64,000 bases of DNA, from positions 248,001-312,000 of the forward strand of contig JACDOE010000001.1 in assembly GCA_017656255.1 (NCBI GenBank), read 5' to 3'. Positions 32,206-33,509 of the stretch are shown here, piece by piece. The position numbers and the translations under genes were made by a program. Positions within the stretch are counted from its first letter, which is position 1. Each line of letters opens with the position of its first letter. Below the pieces are notes generated by a model that did no database searches, was not told the DNA's origin, and was given only the letters and a program-made list of their open reading frames with translations. This DNA comes from Bacillaceae bacterium (lineage in GTDB: Bacteria > Bacillota > Bacilli > JACDOE01).

Positions 32206-32299
32206 GGAGAGGTGTCCGAGCTGGCCGAAGGAGCACGATTGGAAATCGTGTAGGCGGGGTCAACCCGTCTCGAGGGTTCGAATCCCTCCCTCTCCGCCA
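32206..32299 (+). tRNA. tRNA-Ser(GGA)
   Basis: Class II tRNA with acceptor GGAGAGG paired to the 3' end, a long variable arm, T-loop GGTTCGAATCC and encoded CCA. The anticodon loop TTGGAAA gives GGA. Its last bases are duplicated at 32485-32506. Confidence 0.96.
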
Positions 32300-32502
32300 T
32301 AATGTAAAAACGTATGATTTATCAGACTGGTATAATCGGAAACCTGTAGCAGGGTTTCGAACCCTCTCTCCGAAGGAGAGAGCACAGGGTTCGCTGGAAA
32401 CACGACGAGGACAGGGCGAAAAGCCCGTGCCGAGTCGATGTTGGATTCCGGAGCCGAGCCGATGAAATCGGCGAAGGGGAAGGTATCCCTCCCTCTCCGC
32501 CA
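32300..32502 (+). mobile_element. structured element A behind tRNA-Ser(GGA), ending in a copy of its 3' end
   Basis: A 203-base unit follows the tRNA's CCA. The first 49 bases are AT-rich. From 32349 the core folds into GC-rich hairpins: GAACCCT/AGGGTTC (32359-32365, 32386-32392) around CTCTCC-GAA-GGAGAG; GGGC/GCCC (32414-32417, 32423-32426); and GCCGAT-GAA-ATCGGC (32458-32472). It ends with a second copy of the tRNA-Ser(GGA) terminus: 22 identical bases at 32282-32303 and 32485-32506. The core is nearly identical to element B. No coding frame is credible, because antisense frames cross the tRNA. The layout resembles an att-site duplication at a tRNA 3' end, but the unit is too short to carry an integrase. 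Confidence 0.7.
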
Positions 32503-32525
32503 TAATAATACCTGTTAATTTTAAT

Positions 32526-32601
32526 GCTCCTGTAGCTCAGTTGGTAGAGCGCATCCATGGTAAGGATGAGGTCGCAGGTTCGATCCCTGTCGGGAGCACC
32601 A
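32526..32601 (+). tRNA. tRNA-Thr(GGT)
   Basis: 76 bases with acceptor GCTCCTG..., anticodon loop ATGGTAA (GGT), T-loop GGTTCGATCC and encoded CCA. Confidence 0.95.
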
Positions 32602-32608
32602 TAGAAGT

Positions 32609-32685
32609 GGCGGCGTAGCTCAGATGGCTAGAGCGTACGGTTCATACCCGTGAGGTCGGGGGTTCGATTCCCTCCGCCGCTACCA
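32609..32685 (+). tRNA. tRNA-Met(CAT), elongator
   Basis: 77 bases, anticodon loop TTCATAC. It closely resembles the B. subtilis elongator tRNA-Met and lacks the three G-C anticodon-stem pairs of initiators. CCA is encoded. Confidence 0.94.
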
Positions 32686-32691
32686 TTACAC

Positions 32692-32765
32692 AGGGGCATA
32701 GTTTAATGGTAGAACAGCGGTCTCCAAAACCGCCAGTGTGGGTTCGATTCCTACTGCCCCTGCCA
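32692..32765 (+). tRNA. tRNA-Trp(CCA)
   Basis: 74 bases, acceptor AGGGGCA, anticodon loop CTCCAAA, encoded CCA end. Confidence 0.96.
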
Positions 32766-32776
32766 CTCAAGATAAT

Positions 32777-32853
32777 GGCGGCTATGGCGAAGTGGTTAAC
32801 GCACCGGATTGTGGCTCCGGCATTCGTGGGTTCGATTCCCACTAGTCGCCCCA
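32777..32853 (+). tRNA. tRNA-His(GTG)
   Basis: Anticodon loop TTGTGGC. The extra 5' G (32777) pairs with C73 (32850), the mark of tRNA-His. CCA is encoded. Confidence 0.95.
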
Positions 32854-32859
32854 AAGTAC

Positions 32860-32952
32860 GGAGGAGTACCCAAGTCTGGCTGAAGGGAGCGGTCTTGAAA
32901 ACCGCCAGGGCGTTCGCGCGCCGCGGGGGTTCGAATCCCTCCTCCTCCGCCA
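32860..32952 (+). tRNA. tRNA-Ser(TGA)
   Basis: Class II tRNA, acceptor GGAGGAG, anticodon loop CTTGAAA, GC-rich long variable arm, encoded CCA. Its 3' end is duplicated at 33138-33157. Confidence 0.96.
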
Positions 32953-33155
32953 TGAAAATTGATCAATGAATAACAAACATCAATAATTAAAATAAATCCT
33001 CGGCAGGGATGAAGAACCCCCTCTCCGAAGGAGAGAGTGCGGGGTTCGCTGGAAACACGACGAGGACAGGGCAAAGCCCGTGCCGAGTCGATGTTGGATT
33101 CCGGAGCCGAGCCGACGAAGTCGGCGAAGGGGAAGGTATCCCTCCTCCTCCGCCA
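32953..33155 (+). mobile_element. structured element B behind tRNA-Ser(TGA), ending in a copy of its 3' end
   Basis: Second copy of the element. After an AT-rich stretch of about 50 bases the core (33003-33155) matches element A almost base for base. Differences fall mainly at paired positions: stem GAACCCC/GGGGTTC (33014-33020, 33041-33047) and GCCGAC-GAA-GTCGGC (33111-33125), each with compensatory change against A, plus a shorter loop in GGGC-AAA-GCCC. The last 20 bases of tRNA-Ser(TGA), 32935-32954, recur at 33138-33157. The offset between the duplicated tRNA ends is 203 bases, the same as in A, although the AT-rich halves differ. Confidence 0.7.
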
Positions 33156-33226
33156 TGTAATAAACAAACAACAACACAAAAGAGAAGGTGACTCACCTCT
33201 CATTTCTCACATCCCACATCCAACCC

Positions 33227-33319
33227 GGAGAGATACCCAAGTGGCTGAAGGGGACGGTTTGCTAAACCGTTAGTGGGCCTATTGGCCCAGCGCGGGTTCG
33301 AATCCCGCTCTCTCCGCCA
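33227..33319 (+). tRNA. tRNA-Ser(GCT)
   Basis: Class II tRNA, acceptor GGAGAGA, anticodon loop TTGCTAA, long variable arm, encoded CCA. Its 3' end is duplicated at 33494-33509. The 71 bases before it contain a palindrome, AGGTGA-C-TCACCT, near 33186-33198. Confidence 0.96.
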
Positions 33320-33509
33320 TAATCATAAATATAGCGTATAGCAGTAAACACAAAGTTGAATCATACATAACAAGTAAATCGCGCGGGATTCAGAACCCGC
33401 GCAGCGGAGTTCGCAACTTAGACACAGCGGCTACGTCGAACAAGCATCAGCGCAGCTGTGTCATCCGGGTGCTGGTGCAAAGCAGCAGTGAATCCGCTCT
33501 CTCCGCCAT
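33320..33509 (+). mobile_element. divergent structured element C behind tRNA-Ser(GCT), ending in a copy of its 3' end
   Basis: A 190-base unit with the same plan as A and B but little sequence identity. An AT-rich start is followed by GCGCGGG/CCCGCGC (33381-33387, 33396-33402), overlapping an alternative hairpin GAAC-CCGC-GCA-GCGG-A-GTTC (33393-33412) that mirrors the first stem of A and B and is likewise followed by GC. Then GACACAGC/GCTGTGTC (33421-33428, 33455-33462). GGATTC (33386-33391) can pair with GAATCC (33490-33495) to close the unit. It ends with 16 bases identical to the tRNA-Ser(GCT) terminus (33305-33320 and 33494-33509). Confidence 0.6.

Follow-up and report, generated by a model that had tools for sequence, protein, structure and literature searches.

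The window analysed here (64,000 nucleotides, positions 248,001 to 312,000 of contig JACDOE010000001.1, assembly GCA_017656255.1 of a Bacillaceae bacterium) carries a cluster of tRNA genes at positions 32206–33509. ARAGORN identified exactly ten tRNAs in this interval, three of which are tRNA-Ser, in agreement with the original prediction of three tRNA-Ser and seven other tRNAs. That prediction had also described a downstream copy of the 3' end of each tRNA-Ser, and reading of the sequence confirmed all three direct repeats: ATCCCTCCCTCTCCGCCATAAT (22 bp, 32282/32485), ATCCCTCCTCCTCCGCCATG (20 bp, 32935/33138) and CCGCTCTCTCCGCCAT (16 bp, 33305/33494). The three loci comprise the following features:

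32206..32299, + strand: tRNA-Ser(GGA), in which the copied segment begins at T-loop position ~59 (32282) and takes in the rest of the 3' end (sequence, ARAGORN)
32300..32484, + strand: element behind tRNA-Ser(GGA)
32350..32366, + strand: GGA unit, near-antisense T-arm copy CAGGGTTTCGAACCCTC (sequence)
32386..32393, + strand: GGA unit, sense copy of the 5' half of the T-arm, AGGGTTCG, which pairs with the antisense copy as helix P1
32396..32443, + strand: GGA unit, conserved core GGAAACACG...CGATGTTG, a helix with a covarying pair (AU/GU/GC) and a bulged A
32443..32483, + strand: GGA unit, 3' hairpin region with a covarying stem (GCCGAT/ATCGGC, GCCGAC/GTCGGC, GCCG/CGGC)
32485..32506, + strand: copy of the tRNA-Ser(GGA) 3' end, 22 bp (sequence)
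32860..32952, + strand: tRNA-Ser(TGA) (ARAGORN)
32953..33137, + strand: element behind tRNA-Ser(TGA), belonging with the GGA unit in one sequence family
33004..33021, + strand: TGA unit, near-antisense T-arm CAGGGATGAAGAACCCCC (sequence)
33041..33048, + strand: TGA unit, sense 5' half of the T-arm GGGGTTCG (sequence)
33138..33157, + strand: copy of the tRNA-Ser(TGA) 3' end, 20 bp (sequence)
33227..33319, + strand: tRNA-Ser(GCT) (ARAGORN)
33320..33493, + strand: element behind tRNA-Ser(GCT), of a second sequence family with unchanged layout
33380..33402, + strand: GCT unit, near-antisense T-arm of the GCT type CGCGCGGGATTCAGAACCCGCGC (sequence)
33406..33413, + strand: GCT unit, sense T-arm-like segment GGAGTTCG (sequence)
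33494..33509, + strand: copy of the tRNA-Ser(GCT) 3' end, 16 bp (sequence)

Each unit starts just past the CCA of its tRNA and ends with a copy that runs from T-loop position ~59 to the CCA or a few bases past it. The order from 5' to 3' is a spacer, often with a hairpin, a near-antisense T-arm, a hairpin ending in the sense 5' half of the T-arm, a structured core, a 3' hairpin and the 3'-end copy. Over the part they share, the GGA unit is ~93% identical to the TGA unit; the GCT unit is unlike both in sequence and identical in layout. The core reads GGAAACACG...CGATGTTGG in the source genome, where changes in its stems between copies are compensatory, and folding was moderately favourable compared with shuffled sequences (z scores of -3.5, -2.5 and -3.3). 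The units contain no meaningful open reading frame. A minus-strand ORF at 32796–33203, which crosses tRNA genes and the TGA unit, was taken as spurious, and a long minus-strand ORF over units and tRNA genes at a second locus (L009, 2445–3234) is probably spurious too; such frames are apt to yield false hypothetical proteins.

We then sought the last 17 nt of each of the 56 tRNAs of the source genome downstream of its gene, requiring at least 14 of 17 matches outside another tRNA. A copy was found behind six tRNAs, namely all five tRNA-Ser (GGA, two TGA and two GCT) and one tRNA-Arg(TCT), and at the same threshold behind none of the other 50; shuffled downstream regions reached at most 13/17 in ~2,200 trials. 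The proposed check for a second 3'-end copy behind every tRNA-Ser gene of the genome was thus positive in all five, and the proposed limitation to tRNA-Ser holds within the window but not genome-wide, where the tRNA-Arg(TCT) also carries a unit. Tandem units follow three of the six tRNAs: two with a period of 197 at L008, three with a period of 207 behind the tRNA-Arg (L009), and two plus one partial unit behind the other tRNA-Ser(GCT) (L011). The genome's other tRNA-Arg(TCT) gene (L014, 6744–6820) differs in its T-stem, GGGAGTTCGAATCTCTCC, and is without an element.

A covariance model from the source genome recovered relatives behind tRNAs of other Bacilli, and broader models gave matches in 16 (model R2) and 34 (model R3) of 399 Bacilli genomes; in a phylum sample of 299 genomes, R2 matched nothing except the source genome. 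The hosts include Vulcanibacillus modesticaldus and Bacillales bacterium UBA6259, and the largest host group, family f4 with genomes of 4.6–7.6 Mb, we infer to be Paenibacillaceae. All 105 re-examined matches sit behind a tRNA and on its strand, the hosts being Arg(TCT) in 63 cases, Ser in 24 (GCT 15, GGA 4, TGA 3, CGA 2), Glu(TTC) in 10, Asp(GTC) in four and Arg(ACG) in four. The suggestion that the element targets tRNA-Ser was not upheld, as the same element follows both kinds of tRNA-Arg, tRNA-Glu and tRNA-Asp in the source and related genomes; a Ser-specific element is ruled out by the tRNA-Arg array of the source genome and by these other hosts. Units behind many non-Ser tRNAs had been named in advance as evidence against the prediction; their presence counts against Ser-specificity only, and no copy of the tRNA-type family was seen away from a tRNA among the matches examined. 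In a tree of 93 cores, in which few columns make the counts rough, the host tRNA changes at least 17 times compared with 41.8 times after shuffling. Since host tRNAs cluster strongly on this tree, units mostly keep to one kind of tRNA; supported clades with mixed hosts comprise Ser, Arg(ACG) and Glu in one genome (G013) and Ser and Arg in the source genome.

Where units are arranged in tandem, their number varies and the array often closes with a partial unit. The 3' end next to the tRNA is intact without exception, while mutations or truncations are frequent in distal copies: 71 of the 105 matches have a 3'-end copy whose first 15 bases are exact, and many of the others are distal or end units. 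This pattern bears on the idea of an intron-like ribozyme in the T-loop, in which the distal 3' end would complete the tRNA by splicing and the antisense T-arm would act as guide. The antisense T-arm does span the would-be junction, the 3' copy begins at a fixed T-loop position, and group I introns in tRNA genes resemble the units in size range and in having a guide-like complementary segment. Splicing, however, predicts the opposite of the observed decay, no known intron core was matched in Rfam, and the tRNA gene at Bacilli units, in contrast to one that houses a group I intron, is uninterrupted. We regard an intron as extremely unlikely and rejected it on the retention of the proximal 3' end and the decay of distal copies.

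Paralogous tRNA-Glu genes of a single genome provided exact empty and filled sites (L222/L224 against L218/L225). The empty site reads TTCGAATCCCCTACGGGTCA|TAATATGGAGGCTTAGC; in the filled site the tRNA end is followed by TAGCAATATCTATTGCTTCAACAAGGGATGAGAATCCC...GAGAGT and then ATCCCCTACGGGTCA|TAATATGGAGGC. The insertion is ~113 bp long and is flanked by a direct repeat of the segment from the T-loop to the tRNA 3' end, of which empty sites have one copy and filled sites two. As the spacer is missing at empty sites it belongs to the insert, and the possibility that the flank between tRNA and element is native DNA was rejected on the same sites. The direct repeat measures 15–16 bp where the tRNA gene is without CCA and 18–19 bp where CCA is present, so its length is set by where the tRNA ends and not by a staggered cut of constant width. 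Two further loci (L226 and L227) hold the left part of the element only: ~40 bp behind tRNA-Glu, a hairpin and GGGATGAGAATCCC stand without core or 3' copy and the native flank follows directly.

Ever since its first sequencing, the RtT repeat of the E. coli tyrT operon has counted as a curiosity, with no settled view of what it does or where it comes from. In E. coli K-12, RtT at tyrT/tyrV consists of GGGGAAGGATGAGAA, in which GAGAA follows the antisense T-stem, then AAGGTTCG, hairpins that include CTCGAGC..GCGAGAG, and finally AATCCTTCCCCCACCACCA. It shares with the Bacilli units the position behind a tRNA, an antisense T-arm followed by GAGAA, a sense T-arm half (AGGUUCG in RtT), several hairpins, a 3'-end copy (T-loop to CCA in RtT) and an arrangement in tandem. 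The same-strand position directly 3' of the tRNA is common to RtT and all 105 Bacilli matches, and the tandem-GA motif reported for RtT (PMC7657543) recurs in the 3' hairpin of Bacilli units from families other than the window's own, in whose units it has no clear counterpart. RtT matches occur at 1 to 14 places each in 4,711 of 5,426 complete E. coli genomes, and strain SK1144 has an exact empty site behind tyrT, a counterpart to the empty tRNA-Glu sites of the Bacilli element; ~13% of the complete E. coli genomes are without an RtT match. The initial view that no described class fits was not supported: an antisense T-arm, hairpins, a copied 3' end, units in tandem and a precise empty site make up the architecture of RtT as well.

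The Bacilli units differ from RtT in belonging to another phylum, in having Ser, Arg, Glu and Asp tRNAs rather than Tyr as hosts, and in forming several subfamilies; in Actinobacillus, RtT homologues have been described beside tRNA genes for Asn and Lys (PMC4986893). The Rfam model of RtT (RF00391) did not match the Bacilli elements even at E 10, which places them below its gathering threshold, and when the window, related loci and individual units were scanned with Rfam, only tRNA, rRNA and noise were returned. For want of an RF00391 match the Bacilli element is not filed in that family, and we call it RtT-type by architecture. In the reverse direction, Bacilli model R3 scored 20.2 bits (E 1.8e-4) on the E. 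coli tyrT unit, compared with at most 9.5 bits at a control site without annotated RtT; its scores on three tyrV-side RtT units, 9.7–10.8 bits, were no better than this control. A specific deviation, GGAUGAGAA, replaces the exact antisense T-arm in E. coli RtT, in most Paenibacillaceae-like units and at L011; it has one extra base in the TGA unit of the window and is missing from the GGA unit, which is also without the GATGAGAA motif.

Direct repeats from the T-loop to the 3' end are typical of many integrations that target tRNA genes, and the att-like geometry originally noted is that of a real insertion, with exact empty sites at the tRNA-Glu paralogues and in SK1144. An att-type event, in which a tyrosine recombinase acts at the T-arm on a very small satellite and the direct repeat is the attL/attR core, is accordingly a serious if minor possibility: the repeat begins in the T-loop, reaches the tRNA 3' end and is single at an exact empty site, and tandem units could represent repeated integrations. 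On the other hand, no integrase or other mobility gene is present among the genes at 25.4–41.3 kb of the window, whose translations were read, and plasmids, phages and viral contigs gave no match to the element. The many copies across many species came with no larger autonomous relative in view, and conserved, covarying RNA-like hairpins would be superfluous for an att core. In contrast to elements of tyrosine recombinases, the Bacilli units carry neither integrase nor cargo, span only ~95–210 bp, and have a structured core and a same-strand, RNA-like organisation.

The empty sites also bear on whether the units are functionless debris of ordinary tandem duplication of tRNA spacers. Array number varies and distal units decay, as such debris might, and rtT RNA has been described as a 175-bp VNTR in Salmonella (PMC2658671). 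As spacer and core are missing at empty sites, however, the units were not made by duplicating the locus, which bears out the early statement that they are not a simple tandem duplication of one locus; the core is moreover conserved across families and the hairpins covary. Debris is disfavoured by the empty sites and is very unlikely as an explanation. Other small structured Bacillus repeats such as bcr1 (PMC2267715) are likewise short, structured, non-coding and found in Bacilli; these are dispersed and not described in that source as tied to tRNA ends, bcr1 being compared by description only.

Among the Bacilli units examined the 3' hairpin occurs in 40 versions, with whole stems exchanged and still complementary. 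The arms of helix P4 pair at 5.3 of 7 positions with their own partner, compared with a mean of 3.7 when partners are swapped (maximum 4.2 in 500 shuffles). Such complete stem replacement is hard to explain without a pairing constraint, although relatedness inflates the arm-pairing counts. Identities of separate segments were left out of account, since the search expression biased them for every segment but the spacer, the P3 loop and the flank. The antisense T-arm forms 4.3 pairs with its own tRNA and 3.9 with others, a difference in means that is small because most T-stems share ATCCC and the register is imperfect; a better fit to the own tRNA is clear only for Arg(ACG) and for E. coli Tyr.

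Hairpins of this kind could instead belong to a DNA element that moves as single-stranded DNA, like the REP/PATE elements of HUH transposases. Bacilli units have GNA triloops and perfect hairpins, and they persist behind terminator-like hairpins. Model R2 also matches a ~150-bp dispersed repeat in 24 of the 31 genomes of family f41 (loci L039, L046, L052, L057 and L068–L097), which has up to 40 copies per genome, lies away from tRNAs, is sometimes tandem and matched no Rfam family. With the tRNA-linked elements it has in common the core GGAAACACG...CGATGTTGA and a closing stem, and would be their free-moving relative. This repeat may possibly belong to a wider family with the tRNA-linked elements, the model scores being weak (E 1e-5 to 1e-3), and the same weakness tells against the single-stranded DNA explanation. 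So do the G-U pairs in the stems of Bacilli units, the location of all tRNA-type matches on the strand of the tRNA, and the 15–19 bp target duplication, since to our knowledge HUH elements do not duplicate 15–19 bp of target. We consider movement as single-stranded DNA doubtful.

Taken together, the insertion is real, precise and structured. We think it probable that each unit is an RtT-type, non-coding element whose insertion point lies immediately after the mature tRNA 3' end, and that these units form a divergent Bacilli branch of RtT-type tRNA-linked RNA elements that spreads and varies by recombination between copied tRNA ends and occasionally switches host tRNA. This RtT-type interpretation is supported by the chance test, the tandem arrays, the empty and filled tRNA-Glu paralogues, the same-strand tRNA hosts, and the RtT layout with its empty site in SK1144; further support comes from the R3 score on tyrT, the common GGAUGAGAA deviation, the tandem-GA hairpin, the P4 pairing and the clustering of hosts with at least 17 changes. 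It is weakened by the missing RF00391 match, the tyrV-side scores at control level, the GGA unit without GATGAGAA and a terminator-like hairpin that stands between tRNA and element behind tRNA-Arg(TCT), on account of which cotranscription there is uncertain. In the tRNA-Arg(TCT) arrays L132, L139, L161, L173 and similar ones, each tandem unit has its own terminator-like hairpin.

We infer that the element may function as an RNA. The earlier alternative of an RNA processed together with tRNA-Ser is plausible in its link to tRNA processing, though not in its restriction to Ser. A stable RNA released from the tRNA transcript has been reported for E. coli RtT (Bosl and Kersten 1991, as cited in PMC4986893), for which a stringent-response role has also been proposed, as related in PMC4986893. 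The RNA of the Bacilli element would be made as part of the tRNA transcript and closed by a helix in which the antisense T-arm pairs with the copied strand of the T-stem, and the copied end would give it a tRNA-like 3' terminus, by analogy with the annotated E. coli rttR RNA, whose last bases are the copied CCA. Recombination between copied ends, or between paralogous tRNA operons, could produce precise loss, growth of arrays and spread from one tRNA gene to others of its kind; the rare move to another kind of tRNA would need a further step beyond recombination. A bolder proposal is a class of tRNA-parasitic RNA elements in at least two bacterial phyla, in which the antisense T-arm is a target-matching guide for insertion at tRNA ends, a switch of host rewrites the guide and the 3' copy at once, and the element persists as an RNA whose tRNA 3' end is borrowed; in this extended form we consider it unlikely.

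The architectural class is already known from RtT; its Bacilli branch is absent from Rfam, and we found no description of it in the open literature. It adds a family that Rfam lacks, and gives warning of spurious ORF predictions on such units. What was the oddity of a single locus can now be studied comparatively through a divergent RtT counterpart that follows Ser, Arg, Glu and Asp tRNAs in many Bacilli and offers covarying stems, host switches, paralogous copies and exact empty sites; the RtT puzzle is thereby extended to a second major bacterial group. Comparison of these loci establishes three points: the element was inserted, its constant right border is the copied tRNA end, and related units follow different tRNAs. 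Genomes that have filled and empty paralogues side by side now allow a test between a selfish element and a processed regulatory RNA.
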